Position numbers and translations under genes: made by a program. Below are positions 274 to 45,344 of a stretch of 45,344 nt of DNA, piece by piece. The DNA is taken from assembly GCA_001600495.1 (NCBI GenBank), contig BCKE01000072.1, positions 1-45,344 of the forward strand, written 5' to 3'. Within the stretch, counting starts at the first letter, position 1. Every line of letters begins with the position of its first letter. The notes under the pieces were generated by a model. The model was not told the DNA's origin, ran no database searches, and saw only the letters and a program-made list of their open reading frames with translations. The DNA comes from Pilasporangium apinafurcum. Its lineage: Eukaryota > Oomycota > Peronosporomycetes > Pythiales > Pythiaceae.

Positions 274-874
274 CGTTTTTTTATTATCCCAAGATTTTTA
301 TATACTATGGATTTTACTTTTTGTCATTTTGTTAACTATCTCATTTCCATTTATATAAGATATGTATCTGGGTATCATATGCAATACAATACTCTAGACT
401 CGACGTTACGCTTAGATACGAAAGTAAGACAAAATACCAATAAGAGGATCGCTTTGTTTGCTCAGAGTCTCTTTGTAAATTCACATGGTATAATGACTTG
501 GAAAAGACGCTATAATGGCTTGAAAGAAACTCAAAACAAAGATCGTCCCTGAGTTACCAAATGGTAGCTCATATGATCTTTTTCGAATATTTAGCATATG
601 TTGGATATTAGTGAAGCGAAACTCAATTCGAAAACAAAAAAAATGCAAAACAAGAATGACACAAGATACGACAGTTAGAAAGGATTTGCTAATCTCTATG
701 GGTTGATAGTGTACATGAGACGGTTGTAGCCAGCCACTAATAAACCCAACGCTAACGCCTCAAAGTATCATACATCAGTAGAGAGACGAAGAGTTCCATT
801 CACTACGTTTTTTTCATTTCAAAATTTTCCTTCTCTTACAACAAACATCCAAGACACTAACAAAGAAATCAACA

Positions 875-2155: not shown

Positions 2156-2371
2156 GCTTCTTCTTACAAATCTTCAGTCAGTTTTTCACTTAGTATACCT
2201 GTGTACTCACCATTATTTGTTGGTTTGTTTCTGTGCTAATACAATAATGCCAGTTCACTGCATTGACAAACGACCTTACTTTAACCTTAACAGATCATAT
2301 GTGCTACCAAAATACGAGTAACTCAGAGAGGAGATCCTGTTTTCCTTTTGGTTCGACTTGACTAGCAAAAG

Positions 2372-2530
2372 CTACCTAAGACTAGACAACTGCGGAGTAG
2401 CCATCTCCGACCTGGACTCGATGGCTAATTGGTCATTCTTGAGAAAGATGTTTCTAGCAGCGTTGAGATCTCTATCAAGGGCGAACTTACAGTGAGGACT
2501 TGGTTTGTCTATCTTCTGAATATCCCTGCT
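2372..2530 (-). pseudogene. C-terminal fragment of a TnpB/Fanzor nuclease
   Basis: A minus-strand frame of about 52 codons ending at TAG 2374-2372. It contains DIQKIDKPSPHCK followed by FALDRDLNAARNIFLKN. This is the end of the zinc ribbon plus the third RuvC motif (D-R-D-x-N-A-A-R-N) diagnostic of TnpB and its eukaryotic homologue Fanzor. The RuvC-III Asp is present. The first zinc-ribbon Cys pair, the bridge helix and RuvC I/II are missing, because the frame begins right where the recombinase homology stops. An internal deletion therefore probably removed most of a nuclease gene and fused its end to tnpA. It is a relic, not an active nuclease. Confidence 0.75.
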
Positions 2531-2533
2531 TCC

Positions 2534-3112
2534 CTTCCATTTCTTTTGACAACAAAGACGCTAACACGAAACCAGAGATCTTCTTGGCGTTCTCTCACTT
2601 CCATGTCCTCATTCTTGTCTTGATAAAGTTATTGATCAGCGTGAACCACGACTTGGATACTATGGTCTTTACGCATTTGCGCGAAGAGTCCATGCCCAAA
2701 TCGATCTTGGATGGTAACCACAATCCTCGAAATCTGCTTTCTACATATCATTTCCATCAATCTAGACAGTCCAGGCTTGTTGTACCTGAGACCGGAATCA
2801 ATCTCGACAGCGACTTCACTATCTGGGAAAGCAGTCAATAGCAATGCTTTCTGACGCACACGATTGGATAGTTGATTTCTTAATGAGACTCGACAAGAGA
2901 CGATTGTAGCTCTTTGTCAATGTTGGTATTGGAATAATGGATTCACATCCATTCCTTGTGCCAAACGACCATCAATCGATTCAAGATCATACAACCACAC
3001 TCTGTGCTTCAGATAGCCCTGACGTTAACCAGACCTTGAAGATCCCACCCTCTAAGGGGTTCAGAAGAGATATCATCTCTCTAACTTTGGCAGAGGATAC
3101 ATACTTGGTCAT
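2534..3112 (-). pseudogene. IS607-family serine recombinase (TnpA) relic
   Basis: Read on the minus strand. A MerR-like HTH is spread over three frames: KYVSSAKVREM (from 3112), LRGWDLQGLVNV, then HRVWLYDLESIDGRL. After a TGA at 2919-2917, an open stretch 2916-2632 carries the catalytic domain: CRVSLRNQ (Ser of the R-V-S-x-x-x-Q signature), ALLLTAFPDSEV, EIDSGLRYNKPGLSRLMEM and ISRIVVTIQDRFGHGLF, matching the IS607 pattern DIGSGLN...RxGL...V...DRLARFG. A TAA at 2631-2629 interrupts the tail, but an EDL...VSVFVVKRNGR segment typical of the family's C-terminal helix continues to about 2534. At least two frameshifts and two stops mean it is not functional. Family identity is from motif recognition. 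Confidence 0.78.
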
Positions 3113-3684
3113 GCCTTTTGACTGAAATCGATGTCGTGAGATTGACAAGTGAGATAGATGACAGTCGATGAGAGCGAGTGACATACCAAACCACAATCAG
3201 CTTTTCATGCAGATATTGTACACTTGAATTTTGGGATATCTTCCGACTGAAATGTGCGATCACCATAGATTGTCATACAGAGTAAATCGTTTTCGAACTC
3301 AAAAACAAAACCAACATCTCACCTTGTTTTAGTATTAGACAAAACTTTTTCTGGTACTTTAATCATTGCATGGATTATATTGGTAATATTTAAAACTACC
3401 GTCTTTTGAAACAAATCCATGACAAGCAGTTTTCCGCGGTTTTTTCTTTCCGCCGTTCAACAAAGGCGACTATTATTGGCTGCAAGCAGGAAGAGGAAAA
3501 AGAGGATCTGCAACTCAGACTCTCTCTCCCTCATCTCATATCTCATCCTCCCCATTTGGACTCCTGCCGCTGCTGCCACCGCTATTACCAACTGCTATTA
3601 CTACGCGGTAAACTTCTTTATCTCTCTTTCTCTGCGTGTATTCTTCTTGTCTGACTCACTTATCTGCTGGATAGATCGATTGCG
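3113..3684. other. Intergenic; probable 5' region of the amino-acid transporter
   Basis: The first half is AT-rich without coding signal. At 3541-3560 CTCATCCTCCCCATTTGG resembles an oomycete Inr plus flanking promoter region, about 140 nt before the transporter ATG. A GTAAAC...GATAG pair (3608-3674) could be a 67-nt 5' UTR intron; both are tentative. Confidence 0.35.
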
Positions 3685-34666: not shown

Positions 34667-34984
34667 GTGAAAGGAAGATAAGAACAGGCTAACAGGGTCG
34701 GATAAACTTTCTTTACTACTTTTTAGATGTGTGTATGACGATGATGATAACAATACACACTACTTAGAACGATGCTGACAATGCTGAAAGCTATTTCCTA
34801 CTAATAGCTGCGGTGTAAGTTCGGAATGTGATTTGTTGGCAATCCAAAACGGCAGCAGGATAATCAGAAGGCAGATTTTTAATTGTCATGAAAAAGAAAA
34901 AGACATTTTGTTTATGGAAGTTCAAAAGAATACATTTATGTGAGGAAATGAAAACGAAATAGAGTTCTCCAACTCATTTGCTGT
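34667..34984. other. Intergenic between convergent genes; outer edge of left repeat arm
   Basis: 318 bp between the convergent kinase and GH72 stops. From 34939 on it is part of the inverted repeat described below. Whether the repeat reaches further left cannot be told, because the other arm leaves the window there. Confidence 0.5.
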
Positions 34985-36937
34985 CTACACATACATCGCC
35001 AACGTGGCGCCAAACGCCGTGAGCAATACGCCTACGGCCCCAGCAGCACTTTGGACAGCGTCACTGGACCGCACACCGATCTCACTACCCATCCCATTGG
35101 AGCTGGAACTGCCAGGCAGTGTGCTGTTGAAGTTGTACTCAGTCGAAGTTTCATCCCCGCTTGAGGTCATTGGTGTCTCTGCTTCGTTTCCCACAGAATC
35201 AACAACAGAAGAAGACGAGGAAGATGAAGATTTGATAGTACTGGTGGTAGTTTGGCTCTTGCTGACGTATTTGGCAGTGTTCAGTGGGATATTGGGACAT
35301 TGCACACGCGTCTGCGTAGGGCACTGGATGCTTGCCTGCGCATCACTCGACCACGTGAAGCTGCTGAGCGCTGGGAAATCCGCTGGGCACTCGGATGGCT
35401 TCGTTCTTTCTGGATCAATCTCAAACGAGTCGAACGTTGGCTGGCCGGTGTTATTAGTGGATGAATATGCCTCCGCAAGGAACTCAAAGTTGGGGAATCG
35501 CTCGAACGAACAGGGGACATCGACATCGTCACATTCTTCTGGCTTCAGGTATCCAAGTCCGTAGTTCTGCGGTCCCTGTGTCTTGAATGGATAGGCAGAT
35601 GTGGACTTGGAGTTGGCGTTCTCTGTTGAGTACTCAAAGGCAAACCCTCCAGCGAAATAATCACTGTACTCAGGTAAATTCATGAACTTGGCGTCATGGA
35701 ACGTGCGTTGACCCTCGTAGCCATCGACAGTCGGGAATGATGGCGCTGTGCAGCCATACTCGGTGAGAATGACTGGAATCGAATACTTATATGATTCAAA
35801 GCTATCCCGCAAGAGATTGAAACCCGCAGCTTTCGTCGGATCCGAAATGTCGTCGCAGTGCACATAGACATTGATGCCGTACCACTCGGCAGTCTCAAGT
35901 TCATCCTCCGGATCGGTACGGCAGTTGTAGTACTTCGCGTTGGCTTCTCGATTCGTGTCGGCCATGACGAGTCCCACCGGTACCTGACGGAGCGTTGGAC
36001 AAGAGCGAAGGTATGCGCGCATGTCTCGCACGAATTTCTTCTGACATGGTGCATTCCACTGTGGATCATGACCACCCGTGCGGTGATTGATCTCGTTGCC
36101 GCCGCTGAAGCCAATGACGTTGTCGAACTGCGCAAACTGCTGGATGATCGACTCACCACGCACTTTGTAAGACGCAGGATAACACGCTGGTGCTGCGTCA
36201 GCTGTGATCTCACAGCCCTGGCAGCTTGAACCAAGATCGACAAGCACGTAGATGCCGAGCTGTTGCAGCGCACACATGAAGTCCGTATGGTCGACACTTG
36301 GATCGACGGCATAAAGGCGGATGGCGTTGGCACTCAGCGCCTCAAACTGTGGCAAGTCACGCTGCCAGATGTCCGCGTACTCGTTTGAGAAGAGATCGAG
36401 ATTGTTGGCGTCCAATGCACCGGTGTTGGGACGTGGGTAGTAGTTGACGCCGCGCACGCCAAAGTATTCACCTGTGACGCTGTCGAAGAAGCGGTAGCCT
36501 TTGATGATGAGCGGGTTCATGCCGTTGCTGGTGTTGTTATTTGCAACTGGTGTTGATGAAGCTGCCGCTGATGCTACTGATGGTGCTGAGCTGGTGGTCG
36601 CTAAAGTTGAACCTGCTGCAGCTACTGGTGTCTGGACACTGGTGGCTGGCGTTTGGACTGTAGCTGCCGATGCTGTTGAGCCAGCCGCAGCCAGAGCTCC
36701 ATTGACAGCAGGAGCTGTACTTGAAGTGGTCGATGATGCCACTGCAGGTGTCGTCGCTGGTGCTACCACGAGTGTTTGGGTTGGAGTTGGTGCTGAAGTC
36801 GTCACAGGAGTAGCGGCGACTGTGTATGCAGGTGTTTGAGTAACAGTAACAGGGGTCGTCGCGGACAGTCCTGAGGCAAGAGCCGAAGCACTCAAGAGTG
36901 TGGTGAGGGTGAAGAACGAGTTGAAGAGCTTGACCAT
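34985..36937 (-). CDS. GH72 beta-1,3-glucanosyltransferase, GPI-anchor type (copy 1)
   Basis: 650 aa, intronless. A signal peptide (FNSFFTLTTLLSASALASG) precedes a ~120-residue Thr/Ala/Pro/Ser-rich stretch likely to be O-glycosylated. The GH72 catalytic domain (residues ~145-510) contains IKGYRFFD, GVRGVNYYPRP, NAIRLYAVDPS, the acid/base Glu282 in GGNEINHR, and the nucleophile Glu393 in VILTEYGC. A Ser-rich tail ends in a hydrophobic segment (VGVLLTAFGATLAMYV) of the GPI-addition type. GH72 enzymes cut and rejoin beta-1,3-glucan chains at the outer plasma membrane and remodel the cell wall; oomycete walls are rich in beta-1,3-glucan. The Ser/Thr-rich region lies N-terminal to the catalytic domain, unlike yeast Gas/Gel, where it is C-terminal. 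The protein appears identical to the copy at 43346-45298. Confidence 0.93.
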   Translation of the reverse strand: MVKLFNSFFTLTTLLSASALASGLSATTPVTVTQTPAYTVAATPVTTSAPTPTQTLVVAPATTPAVASSTTSSTAPAVNGALAAAGSTASAATVQTPATSVQTPVAAAGSTLATTSSAPSVASAAASSTPVANNNTSNGMNPLIIKGYRFFDSVTGEYFGVRGVNYYPRPNTGALDANNLDLFSNEYADIWQRDLPQFEALSANAIRLYAVDPSVDHTDFMCALQQLGIYVLVDLGSSCQGCEITADAAPACYPASYKVRGESIIQQFAQFDNVIGFSGGNEINHRTGGHDPQWNAPCQKKFVRDMRAYLRSCPTLRQVPVGLVMADTNREANAKYYNCRTDPEDELETAEWYGINVYVHCDDISDPTKAAGFNLLRDSFESYKYSIPVILTEYGCTAPSFPTVDGYEGQRTFHDAKFMNLPEYSDYFAGGFAFEYSTENANSKSTSAYPFKTQGPQNYGLGYLKPEECDDVDVPCSFERFPNFEFLAEAYSSTNNTGQPTFDSFEIDPERTKPSECPADFPALSSFTWSSDAQASIQCPTQTRVQCPNIPLNTAKYVSKSQTTTSTIKSSSSSSSSVVDSVGNEAETPMTSSGDETSTEYNFNSTLPGSSSSNGMGSEIGVRSSDAVQSAAGAVGVLLTAFGATLAMYV

Positions 36938-37005
36938 GTTGGTGGAGGGACGTGAGTGGGTGGGTGGGTAGCTGCGAGCTGAAAGGTGTCACGAAGGCGT
37001 GAGGA

Positions 37006-37024
37006 GGTGAATTGGAGAATGAGG
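37006..37024 (-). promoter_or_regulatory. Inr+FPR-like core promoter of GH72 copy 1
   Basis: On the minus strand CCTCATTCTCCAATTCACC fits 17 of 19 positions of the oomycete initiator plus flanking promoter consensus GCTCATTYYNCAWTTTNYY, about 70-90 nt before the ATG. Identical to the site in the right arm. Confidence 0.55.
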
Positions 37025-37071
37025 ATCTTGTGTGAAGAAGTGTTCAGGACCAACTCCAGTGTTCATTCAGT

Positions 37072-37088
37072 TCTCTCTCTCTCTCTCT
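37072..37088. repeat. CT/GA dinucleotide repeat
   Basis: (CT)n microsatellite upstream of GH72 copy 1, about 135 nt before the ATG; mirrored at 43195-43211. Confidence 0.8.
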
Positions 37089-37449
37089 TTCGTACACACA
37101 CGCGAATGTGCAGCATTTGCACGTAAGATCTCATGCATGTTCCGATCATGAGATTTGCTATGGGACGAACGAACGAGTGCTGGTGCTTTTAATCAATAAA
37201 GCAGTCTAAAACGTTAAATCCGATGATAAATCTGGCAAAAGAACATGCAAAGAAATGGATGCATATCAAACTCAATCCAAAAATACCTCCTCTTGGCTGA
37301 TGCACGTGTGTGATGTGACCGCTTAGTCACAAAAGGTGATAGATCTGAAAATACACCACGCAACGTAATAAAACGACCTCCTCAAGTGGGATCTCGTTGA
37401 TGTTGGAATTCCAGCTGCTTCTTCTAATTATGAAGATATCTTCCCGTCT

Positions 37450-41875: not shown

Positions 41876-42418
41876 TTACCGACCATGAATTTTGAGAATT
41901 GCCACGAGCGCCTGTAACCACTTGCCGGGGCAGTTGATCGCGACAACCAATTCCTGTTTGATGGATTTCAGGTCCGCAATGAGTTGCTTGAAGCCAATCA
42001 CGCGCGCAAGCGCAAACCAATCGGTCAACGGCAACGTGCAGACACCAGCCTGTAGGTAGCACTTGGGGTGCGTATCGAATGCGAACGTCTTGATCTCCGA
42101 ACACATTGGTTTGGTCGTCGAGGTGATGAGCGGTACGAGTTCCTGTTGCAGACAGAGCATCACGTCTGAAATCCAGCGTTTGCCTTGCGTGGAGAATGCG
42201 CTGGCCTTTTTAGAGAAAGCGCGGCAGTACTTGCCGCCGTAGCTAATTGCGTAGCCGTCGCTGCCACAGGGGAAGGTCGCTTCGAGACATTCGTTGTAAA
42301 ACGCACACGAGTCCCGAACAATCGACGTAGTGCAGTTCGCCGGAAGATCCGCCGCCAACGTGCTAGTACTGATGGTAAAGCAGAGCAGCACAGCGAAGGT
42401 CGCGAGAAGAAATTTCAT
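41876..42418 (-). CDS. Secreted stanniocalcin-like cysteine-rich protein
   Basis: 180 aa with no intron. The first ATG (42418) gives a clean signal peptide, MKFLLATFAVLLCF, with a probable cleavage site near STLAAD. The mature protein has ten Cys, enough for five disulfides. Spacing and context match stanniocalcin: SCAFYNECLE, PCGSDGYA, GKYCRAF, FSTQGKRW followed by LCLQ, CSEI...HPKCYLQAGVCTLPLTDW. Vertebrate stanniocalcin has the corresponding CLE, a C-x-x-DG-x-Y region and F-D-TQGK ahead of the next Cys. Stanniocalcins regulate calcium/phosphate in animals; homologues have been reported in single-celled eukaryotes, with unknown function. An elicitin was considered but has six Cys and a different spacing. 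It sits between the element-like gene and the right repeat arm. Confidence 0.7.
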   Translation of the reverse strand: MKFLLATFAVLLCFTISTSTLAADLPANCTTSIVRDSCAFYNECLEATFPCGSDGYAISYGGKYCRAFSKKASAFSTQGKRWISDVMLCLQQELVPLITSTTKPMCSEIKTFAFDTHPKCYLQAGVCTLPLTDWFALARVIGFKQLIADLKSIKQELVVAINCPGKWLQALVAILKIHGR

Positions 42419-42937
42419 ATGTTTGGAATACAATGGGATTGGATTTGTGGAGTTTTTAGTGCAAATCGCGAAGTGGTGCTCTTGTGGGTGATAAAGAATG
42501 TGGTCGTGCGTTCGTGTACTATTCTCTTAGTGGTTGCATTCACCCACCAACCACTCAGTAATGAGAAAGTCCTTTCTACGAATATCCGACTGTGGTGCAG
42601 CAGAAAATTGAAGTCTCGATGATTATCAGACGACGATGGCGACGCGATTTGTGAACATGTCATGGATTTTGCAAACATCGACAGTTGTAATCATTCCTCA
42701 TTACAATTGTGGACCAGGGGCACTGTTTCATTTGTATACAAAGATCAAGTCATACTTCCAAGATGTAGCACAGCTAGCAGCTCATTCATGCATCAATAGC
42801 AGCACTTGTGCACCTTTGCGTCGTCAAGAATTATTATTCACATCCACACCATCGCCACTCTAATTTGTGGAAGGAGTTCCAAATCTAACGCCATCTGCAG
42901 TTGCACCACTATCTATCTATATCATTTAGAAGCAGTC
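42419..42937. other. Intergenic; inner flank of right repeat arm
   Basis: 519 bp with no recognisable gene, probably the promoter of the stanniocalcin-like gene at its left end. Short frames have no recognisable content. Confidence 0.4.
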
Positions 42938-43194
42938 GATCTATCACCTTTTGTGACTAAGCGGTCACATCACACACGTGCATCAGCCAAGAGGAGGTAT
43001 TTTTGGATTGAGTTTGATATGCATCCATTTCTTTGCATGTTCTTTTGCCAGATTTATCATCGGATTTAACGTTTTAGACTGCTTTATTGATTAAAAGCAC
43101 CAGCACTCGTTCGTTCGTCCCATAGCAAATCTCATGATCGGAACATGCATGAGATCTTACGTGCAAATGCTGCACATTCGCGTGTGTGTACGAA

Positions 43195-43211
43195 AGAGAG
43201 AGAGAGAGAGA
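43195..43211. repeat. GA dinucleotide repeat
   Basis: (GA)n microsatellite upstream of GH72 copy 2, mirror of 37072-37088 and of equal length. Confidence 0.8.
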
Positions 43212-43258
43212 ACTGAATGAACACTGGAGTTGGTCCTGAACACTTCTTCACACAAGAT

Positions 43259-43277
43259 CCTCATTCTCCAATTCACC
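43259..43277 (+). promoter_or_regulatory. Inr+FPR-like core promoter of GH72 copy 2
   Basis: CCTCATTCTCCAATTCACC, 17 of 19 positions of the oomycete Inr plus flanking promoter consensus, 69-87 nt before the ATG. Transcription is expected to start at or near the CA. Confidence 0.55.
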
Positions 43278-43345
43278 TCCTCACGCCTTCGTGACACCTT
43301 TCAGCTCGCAGCTACCCACCCACCCACTCACGTCCCTCCACCAAC

Positions 43346-45298
43346 ATGGTCAAGCTCTTCAACTCGTTCTTCACCCTCACCACACTCTTGAGTGCTTCGG
43401 CTCTTGCCTCAGGACTGTCCGCGACGACCCCTGTTACTGTTACTCAAACACCTGCATACACAGTCGCCGCTACTCCTGTGACGACTTCAGCACCAACTCC
43501 AACCCAAACACTCGTGGTAGCACCAGCGACGACACCTGCAGTGGCATCATCGACCACTTCAAGTACAGCTCCTGCTGTCAATGGAGCTCTGGCTGCGGCT
43601 GGCTCAACAGCATCGGCAGCTACAGTCCAAACGCCAGCCACCAGTGTCCAGACACCAGTAGCTGCAGCAGGTTCAACTTTAGCGACCACCAGCTCAGCAC
43701 CATCAGTAGCATCAGCGGCAGCTTCATCAACACCAGTTGCAAATAACAACACCAGCAACGGCATGAACCCGCTCATCATCAAAGGCTACCGCTTCTTCGA
43801 CAGCGTCACAGGTGAATACTTTGGCGTGCGCGGCGTCAACTACTACCCACGTCCCAACACCGGTGCATTGGACGCCAACAATCTCGATCTCTTCTCAAAC
43901 GAGTACGCGGACATCTGGCAGCGTGACTTGCCACAGTTTGAGGCGCTGAGTGCCAACGCCATCCGCCTTTATGCCGTCGATCCAAGTGTCGACCATACGG
44001 ACTTCATGTGTGCGCTGCAACAGCTCGGCATCTACGTGCTTGTCGATCTTGGTTCAAGCTGCCAGGGCTGTGAGATCACAGCTGACGCAGCACCAGCGTG
44101 TTATCCTGCGTCTTACAAAGTGCGTGGTGAGTCGATCATCCAGCAGTTTGCGCAGTTCGACAACGTCATTGGCTTCAGCGGCGGCAACGAGATCAATCAC
44201 CGCACGGGTGGTCATGATCCACAGTGGAATGCACCATGTCAGAAGAAATTCGTGCGAGACATGCGCGCATACCTTCGCTCTTGTCCAACGCTCCGTCAGG
44301 TACCGGTGGGACTCGTCATGGCCGACACGAATCGAGAAGCCAACGCGAAGTACTACAACTGCCGTACCGATCCGGAGGATGAACTTGAGACTGCCGAGTG
44401 GTACGGCATCAATGTCTATGTGCACTGCGACGACATTTCGGATCCGACGAAAGCTGCGGGTTTCAATCTCTTGCGGGATAGCTTTGAATCATATAAGTAT
44501 TCGATTCCAGTCATTCTCACCGAGTATGGCTGCACAGCGCCATCATTCCCGACTGTCGATGGCTACGAGGGTCAACGCACGTTCCATGACGCCAAGTTCA
44601 TGAATTTACCTGAGTACAGTGATTATTTCGCTGGAGGGTTTGCCTTTGAGTACTCAACAGAGAACGCCAACTCCAAGTCCACATCTGCCTATCCATTCAA
44701 GACACAGGGACCGCAGAACTACGGACTTGGATACCTGAAGCCAGAAGAATGTGACGATGTCGATGTCCCCTGTTCGTTCGAGCGATTCCCCAACTTTGAG
44801 TTCCTTGCGGAGGCATATTCATCCACTAATAACACCGGCCAGCCAACGTTCGACTCGTTTGAGATTGATCCAGAAAGAACGAAGCCATCCGAGTGCCCAG
44901 CGGATTTCCCAGCGCTCAGCAGCTTCACGTGGTCGAGTGATGCGCAGGCAAGCATCCAGTGCCCTACGCAGACGCGTGTGCAATGTCCCAATATCCCACT
45001 GAACACTGCCAAATACGTCAGCAAGAGCCAAACTACCACCAGTACTATCAAATCTTCATCTTCCTCGTCTTCTTCTGTTGTTGATTCTGTGGGAAACGAA
45101 GCAGAGACACCAATGACCTCAAGCGGGGATGAAACTTCGACTGAGTACAACTTCAACAGCACACTGCCTGGCAGTTCCAGCTCCAATGGGATGGGTAGTG
45201 AGATCGGTGTGCGGTCCAGTGACGCTGTCCAAAGTGCTGCTGGGGCCGTAGGCGTATTGCTCACGGCGTTTGGCGCCACGTTGGCGATGTATGTGTAG
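43346..45298 (+). CDS. GH72 beta-1,3-glucanosyltransferase, GPI-anchor type (copy 2)
   Basis: 650 aa, same translation as the copy at 34985-36937 in the opposite direction, including both catalytic glutamates (E282, E393), the Thr/Ala-rich N-terminal region and the hydrophobic C-terminal GPI-type tail. The 5' flank including the promoter-like element is also duplicated, so both genes are expected to be expressed alike. The lack of even silent differences in the compared sequence points to a very recent duplication, active gene conversion or an assembly artefact. The stop is at 45298, and the repeat continues to the end of the window. Confidence 0.93.
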   Translation: MVKLFNSFFTLTTLLSASALASGLSATTPVTVTQTPAYTVAATPVTTSAPTPTQTLVVAPATTPAVASSTTSSTAPAVNGALAAAGSTASAATVQTPATSVQTPVAAAGSTLATTSSAPSVASAAASSTPVANNNTSNGMNPLIIKGYRFFDSVTGEYFGVRGVNYYPRPNTGALDANNLDLFSNEYADIWQRDLPQFEALSANAIRLYAVDPSVDHTDFMCALQQLGIYVLVDLGSSCQGCEITADAAPACYPASYKVRGESIIQQFAQFDNVIGFSGGNEINHRTGGHDPQWNAPCQKKFVRDMRAYLRSCPTLRQVPVGLVMADTNREANAKYYNCRTDPEDELETAEWYGINVYVHCDDISDPTKAAGFNLLRDSFESYKYSIPVILTEYGCTAPSFPTVDGYEGQRTFHDAKFMNLPEYSDYFAGGFAFEYSTENANSKSTSAYPFKTQGPQNYGLGYLKPEECDDVDVPCSFERFPNFEFLAEAYSSTNNTGQPTFDSFEIDPERTKPSECPADFPALSSFTWSSDAQASIQCPTQTRVQCPNIPLNTAKYVSKSQTTTSTIKSSSSSSSSVVDSVGNEAETPMTSSGDETSTEYNFNSTLPGSSSSNGMGSEIGVRSSDAVQSAAGAVGVLLTAFGATLAMYV

Positions 45299-45344
45299 AC
45301 AGCAAATGAGTTGGAGAACTCTATTTCGTTTTCATTTCCTCACA

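Follow-up and report, generated by a model that had tools for sequence, protein, structure and literature searches.

The window (the whole 45,344-bp stretch of Pilasporangium apinafurcum DNA analysed here, contig BCKE01000072.1) very probably carries a dead IS607-type transposon copy, in which a broken TnpA is followed by the C-terminal part of a Fanzor2 nuclease and by a right-end tail, and which arrived already deleted and then decayed (probability about 0.93). The deletion before arrival is the weaker part of this explanation and, judged from sequence comparisons, is probable. Based on homology to other copies, the relic extends from 3323 to 2283 on the minus strand, beyond the 2372–3112 given in the first-pass annotation. 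The left limit (~3323) was set by eye from a comparison of the window locus (L009) with L016, L018, and L026, and the right limit was taken from tail alignments. The relic has the following features:

2283–3323, minus strand: whole relic, IS607-type element copy with a type-B right end (homology to other copies)
3113–3323, minus strand: element 5′ leader, the left-end region, with an approximate end (common to L016 and L018; 3309–2973 is 99.1% identical to L026)
2920–3112, minus strand: TnpA N-terminal region, HTH-like, split over three frames (frames; paralogue alignments to bacterial IS607 TnpA)
2632–2916, minus strand: TnpA serine-recombinase catalytic piece (Pfam E 4.1e-5; NCBIfam IS607 E 1.5e-11; PDB 3lhf E 6.9e-7)
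2512–2628, minus strand: TnpA C-terminal remnant (frame; the tblastn match to paralogous TnpA spans 2916–2512)
2372–2560, minus strand: Fanzor2 remnant in which a deletion has fused a few N-terminal codons to the final ~40 (Pfam PF07282, tblastn)
2494–2498, minus strand: deletion junction common to the window, L011, and L012, reference ~2233 to 3316 (alignment; sequence read)
2450–2476, minus strand: RuvC-III motif DRDLNAARN (sequence)
2285–2413, minus strand: 3′ tail, homologous to a predicted structured RNA/right end, decayed here (model R1, fold z)

The TnpA of the relic is interrupted by several stops and frame changes, and no RuvC-I or RuvC-II remains in the Fanzor2 part. A check of the frames found all the motifs listed in the first-pass annotation on the minus strand where it had put them: SSAKVREM in frame 3196–2990, LRGWDLQGLVNV in frame 3080–3012, HRVWLYDLESID in frame 3024–2920, CRVSLRNQ, SGLRYNKPGL, and DRFGHGLF in frame 2916–2632, and FALDRDLNAARNIFLKN in frame 2560–2375. 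The proposal of an IS607-type element with TnpA and a Fanzor/TnpB end in an oomycete is supported by profile, PDB, and paralogue matches; at the level of sequence, the observation is confirmed and the relic is real. An Rfam scan of the window gave nothing at the gathering threshold. The relic begins ~130 bp past the end of an alcohol-dehydrogenase frame. Within it, 337 bp (3309–2973) are 99.1% identical to L026 (G000:C126), while the remainder of L026 and its flanks differ; this near-identity suggests recent copying between elements.

Elsewhere in the window, an elicitin label for 41876–42433 proved wrong, the sequence belonging to the Stanniocalcin family. Two inverted stretches of 2407 bp each (34939–37345 and 42938–45344) are 100% identical, and each holds a 650-aa GH72 glucanosyltransferase frame. 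The pair may be either a recent inverted duplication or an assembly effect.

Identification of TnpA

In the IS607 family, which is of bacterial origin, TnpA has an N-terminal DNA-binding HTH ahead of its catalytic domain, and TnpB/Fanzor lies downstream in the same orientation. These elements have no terminal inverted repeats, make no target duplication, and use a dinucleotide target. Frame 2916–2632 of the window matched Pfam Resolvase with 24.2 bits (cut-off 23.3; E 4.1e-5) and, partially, the NCBIfam IS607 transposase model NF033518 with 44.2 bits (E 1.5e-11), which is below the whole-protein cut-off of 110 because the TnpA piece is partial. The latter is a significant TnpA profile match of the kind on which the first-pass annotation had staked its reading of this frame. 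The frame also matched four PDB sequences. Three have names that refer to a serine recombinase or an IS-element TnpA: 3lhf (‘Serine Recombinase’, E 6.9e-7), 3ilx (‘First ORF in transposon ISC1904’), and 6dgc (‘ISC1926 TnpA catalytic domain’, E 0.098). The fourth, 3lhk (‘putative DNA binding protein MJ0014’), is presumably IS607-type as well. The window TnpA piece is 63% identical to a paralogous TnpA on contig C55 (E 1.6e-48), and a tblastn search of plasmid records with the C55 TnpA returned three matches, all annotated as IS607-family or IS607-like transposases (28–36% identical).

The HTH pieces were not recovered by profiles. The 69-aa piece of the window had no Pfam match and one weak unrelated NCBIfam match (E 0.03), the 35-aa and 23-aa pieces had no profile matches, and three paralogous HTH pieces gave one weak unrelated NCBIfam match and one weak unrelated Pfam match. 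Bacterial IS607 TnpAs aligned from residue 2–15 onwards in nine distinct paralogous loci and only from residue 53 in the window copy (small database, composition correction off, in-frame stops uncounted). The putative HTH assignment in the window copy is based on the paralogues, which align to the N-terminal regions of bacterial TnpAs.

A genome-wide Resolvase scan gave three matches (15/15 candidates scored), two of them with stops inside the match, and the C55 TnpA is open over only a 132-codon part; no uninterrupted full TnpA was found among the three. The window copy was absent among the matches listed in the genome-wide PF00239 and PF07282 scans (E 0.001).

Fanzor2 remnant and related nucleases

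Fanzor lies downstream of TnpA in the same orientation, complete in L014 and L056 and reduced to its C-terminal end in the window. The DRDLNAARN frame scored 22.5 bits against Pfam Cas12f1-like_TNB (PF07282), below the cut-off of 26.3 (E 1.3e-4), and matched two NCBIfam TnpB models weakly, far under cut-off (E 0.0046 and 0.03). It also matched the C-terminus of the L056 Fanzor2, with 57.5% identity over 40 residues (E 1.3e-8, tblastn). A better fit to a host protein, raised at first pass as the finding that would count against the nuclease reading, was not seen in the libraries searched.

The PF07282 scan of the genome gave at least 150 matches, every one of them above the cut-off (of 852 candidates, 150 were scored). 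L056 has an uninterrupted Fanzor2 frame of 432 codons, counted from methionine, next to an interrupted TnpA. This Fanzor2 scored 147.9 bits against the TnpB family (cut-off 100), and its best PDB match is mimivirus L79 (9b0l, E 2.1e-25; main match over query residues 185–406). A passage of Yoon 2023 (PMC10711439) gives as Fanzor fingerprints a DPG and an alternative glutamate near the zinc finger. The RuvC-I motif reads DPG in L056, L062, and L063, position −7 relative to the first Zn cysteine carries the alternative glutamate in both L056 and L062, and the canonical glutamate is absent in L056 (by eye); the window copy lacks these regions. Read from its sequence, the L056-type frame is a predicted Fanzor2 that shows the two fingerprints.

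A second Fanzor2 group, FzB, was read in three loci. L062 is open over 724 codons (with some ambiguous bases) and L063 over 648, and the 703-codon frame of L064 ends before the zinc finger. Between L062 and L063, identity is 97.5% across 2079 bp and 93.5% across another 480 bp; the similarity stops abruptly, and the flanks are unrelated. In our reading, this pattern points to recent movement of FzB copies. None of the three Resolvase matches adjoins the FzB loci. The first-pass expectation of intact relatives elsewhere in the genome thus held for the nuclease, which has open Fanzor2 frames at other loci, but not, among the Resolvase candidates scored, for TnpA.

A third TnpB/Fanzor family was read at L005 (G000:C135:16686-18401, minus strand) and L001 (G000:C7:592604-593131, plus strand), the latter carrying a stop. 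It has DPG in RuvC-I, but the alternative place is occupied by alanine and a glutamate lies 55 residues ahead of the zinc finger; its best PDB match is again mimivirus L79. The family is situated in an oomycete assembly, and plasmid records matched it at 23–28% identity (best 8 of 1146). In a passage of Yoon 2023 (PMC10711439), Fanzors with the canonical glutamate are regarded as mis-annotated bacterial TnpBs.

Searches of viral contigs with a single Fanzor2 gave no confirmed match and with alignment A4 gave two loci at 25–26%. A search of prokaryote genomes with A4 also gave no confirmed match, the patterns being drawn from variable parts.

Copy shapes and deletion junctions

The genome holding the window comprises 36.5 Mb in 136 contigs, some of which duplicate each other (e.g., C18/C121). 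The relic DNA matched at least 70 segments at at least 40 places, the window included (40 scored of 654 candidates). The best segments of the scored places were 75–82% identical, with two exceptions at 100%, one being the window and the other a 288-bp segment on C126.

Thirty loci (L009–L038, the window included as L009) were compared in shape with the reference L056. A large part of the Fanzor body remains in six (L010, L014, L022, L027, L030, L031). Thirteen have a common junction from reference ~2308 to 3294 (L013, L015, L017, L018, L019, L020, L021, which is the same as L058, L024, and L032–L036). The window, L011, and L012 have another junction, ~2233 to 3316 (by eye), at dispersed places, and the other eight loci carry different truncations. 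Both L019/L020 and L027/L030 look duplicated; since some of the 13 loci are near-duplicates (L019/L020), they represent fewer than 13 deletion events. Among a further 20 regions, five overlap the 30 loci, and five others (L043, L044, L046, L047, L048) share a junction that deletes most of TnpA and keeps Fanzor.

In a TnpA tree of 33 copies, the deletion copies were not grouped: L058 nests with full copies (0.99), the window copy pairs with L055 (0.96), and many other nodes are weak. Because the deletion copies are scattered, recombination or copying between elements, or repeated loss, complicates a single descent. The window element itself is a case of ordinary transposon decay, an internally deleted copy of a known element type. 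Following published IS607 and Fanzor work, TnpA would have moved the element by serine recombination, and Fanzor2 would have used the right-end RNA to cut matching DNA, favouring the retention of copies. The copy inserted here would, as the common junction suggests, have been an internal-deletion derivative with TnpA and the right end and no nuclease, and it would have decayed after insertion.

The first-pass annotation held that the site had once hosted the nuclease, so that the copy would have arrived with a complete Fanzor and lost the nuclease body on the spot. The pairing with L055, which keeps part of the Fanzor body, fits such a loss. However, L011 and L012 have the identical junction, and the match at the break is very short, by eye too little for a deletion repeated three times, although gene conversion could yield it. 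Since the same junction occurs in two other dispersed copies (by eye), the nuclease body was probably lost before insertion; the claim of a nuclease at this site is probably wrong, and loss on site is unlikely. It is far less probable still that the relic is a host gene domesticated from a transposase or nuclease. Its closeness to the alcohol-dehydrogenase frame (~130 bp) would suit a gene, but TnpA is broken by frame changes and stops, the remnant has neither RuvC-I nor RuvC-II, and there are dozens of dispersed copies, with unmatched flanks in the loci compared. Bacterial contamination or a very recent bacterial transfer, which the bacterial origin of IS607 elements might bring to mind, is hardly credible against a dispersed multi-copy family mostly 18–25% diverged inside the assembly. 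The three plasmid TnpAs are only 28–36% identical, and TnpB records matched at 25–28% (best 15 of 2836, with 2836/2836 below 60%). The genome also gave 50 elicitin matches (56/56 candidates scored), and elicitins mark oomycetes. We retain the reading of a transposon copy that was probably deleted before it reached this site.

Element ends and the right-end tail

Two types of ends were distinguished. Type-A copies start with TTAACC and end with GGTTAA, ends that resemble inverted repeats and vary between copies, and they lack the last part of the tail; in L042 and L056 these ends surround TnpA and Fanzor2. In type-B copies, the window among them, the tail mostly finishes GAGGYG, after which conservation falls in 26/30 tails (L011, L017, L028, and L030 excluded as non-fitting). 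Empty sites were sought for eight type-A insertions without success, each of 16 matches lying to one side of an occupied site. PiggyBac was considered as the mover of type-A copies and rejected, the single locus read, of three piggyBac matches in the genome, being without TTAACC/GGTTAA ends. A piggyBac-type transposase with a 546-codon open frame was observed at L065 (G000:C5:658288-659460).

Alignment A1 places the final codons of type-B copies, together with their 3′ end, against sequence downstream of the FzB stop (by eye). The window tail scored 111.3 bits against model R1, of whose seed the window copy is a part. Two divergent tails, L057 and L050, folded at z −5.2 and −5.1, and the other 10 of the 12 tested at −2.1 to +1.5, with the window tail at +1.49. 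Of the RNA sought by the first-pass annotation over the Fanzor 3′ end, better preserved copies show a predicted structure, which has decayed in the window itself.

Comparative tests gave mixed results. RNAalifold on 27 MAFFT-aligned tails recovered only one 5-pair hairpin, and 15 family-1 relics showed no excess of covariation. A model-fitted alignment of 28 distinct rows did show an excess (score reached in 0/500 shuffles), such an alignment favouring its own structure; a helix kept out of the fitting was not significant by itself (80/500). Half-swap folding gave 3/20000 for eight hand-picked tails, picked after the folds were seen, and 2297/20000 (not significant) for the 28 rows together. 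With six lineages (4 fixed, 2 random, ×300), the median p was 0.015 (range 0.004–0.16), and 87% of draws had p ≤ 0.05.

On these models, a structured right end is likely, and it is plausible that the tail is a guide RNA. The folded tail might instead be a transposase-binding right end, whose structure plays a role only as DNA, or none. This reading is possible, if the less probable one. It is favoured by the predicted status of the tail as RNA here, by the half-swap result over all copies and the lack of covariation excess in the family-1 relics, and by the 345-bp repeats described below, which carry the tail but no nuclease and have additional bases preceding the end. Against it, the lineage-level half-swap tests favour cognate halves, the two divergent tails fold strongly, and passages of PMC10711439 and PMC10432273 place IS607 TnpB RNAs and Fanzor RNAs at the right end. 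A structured, possibly guide-bearing right end remains our preferred reading.

Dispersed 345-bp repeats

A further feature lies 1.7 kb from the window relic:

276–620, plus strand: 345-bp non-coding repeat whose right-end tail is of the kind seen in the relic and whose left end is degenerate (R1 17.9 bits, E 0.088; repeat copies)

The repeat has at least 40 copies (40 scored of 109 candidates), L068–L079 among them. The 12 copies read matched neither TnpA nor Fanzor at E 1e-3, and their flanks do not align. The same two nested helices appear in ~9/12 (by eye), and most of the copies read end TGAGGYG. The tail of the repeat is 89% identical to that of the TnpA copy L028, and the repeats carry extra bases ahead of the end. 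Directly before the window copy lies a 29-bp tandem repeat of 2.7 copies (194–272).

From its sequence, the 345-bp repeat looks like a ghost-like Fanzor locus and resembles published ghosts. We tentatively raise the rather improbable reading that the Fanzor2 system here is split into cooperating pieces with related right ends, namely TnpA-only copies, nuclease-only copies, and ghost repeats. The pieces, a similarly doubtful assignment, would be the window-type relics, the five Fanzor-keeping deletion copies together with FzB, and the dozens or more of ghosts.

Comparison with known systems

IS607 and Fanzor in eukaryotes have reportedly been surveyed by Gilbert and Cordaux in 2013 and Jiang in 2023. 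Published work already covers IS607 elements, ghost loci, and Fanzor2, the last of these in Phytophthora too. The portion of Bao and Jurka 2013 (PMC3627910) concerned lists Fanzor2 elements with IS607-type TnpA (ACa-1, -2, CRv-1, ISvMimi, ISvAR158, ISvNY2A), the same pairing as found here, and tabulates a single Fanzor2 in each of Phytophthora sojae, P. capsici, and P. ramorum. No oomycete is among the TnpA examples in that portion, whereas here TnpA and Fanzor2 occur together in an oomycete, mostly as relics; a limited literature search found no description of a TnpA-linked Fanzor2 in an oomycete. Mimivirus L79 (9b0l) is the best solved relative of the Fanzor2 of this genome, with DPG and the alternative glutamate readable in the alignment, while the window copy keeps just ~40 C-terminal residues.

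As described in part of Saito 2023 (PMC10432273), the ghost Spu-1 loci are likewise short dispersed repeats with an RNA-bearing right end and no Fanzor gene. However, they span ~550 nt between 30-nt inverted repeats, whereas the 345-bp repeats have no clear inverted repeats and are known from sequence alone. Type-A copies resemble the Fanzor2* captured by TIR transposons in a passage of Yoon 2023 (PMC10711439) in having inverted-repeat-like ends; they differ in that the eight insertions yielded no empty sites and the one piggyBac locus read does not have the same ends.

Significance

These findings draw their interest more from the surviving relatives and the ghost-like repeats than from the relic. 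In one small oomycete genome, the TnpB/Fanzor C-terminal domain has at least 150 matches, and uninterrupted Fanzor2 frames occur alongside deletion classes and tail-only repeats; the L056-type and FzB frames are candidates for laboratory testing. If the system is indeed split, one Fanzor2 protein could be supplied with guides by many loci that lack a Fanzor2 gene. The deletion classes separate transposase from nuclease, and the family as a whole is useful for asking how RNA-guided nucleases entered eukaryotic genomes from bacterial-type elements.
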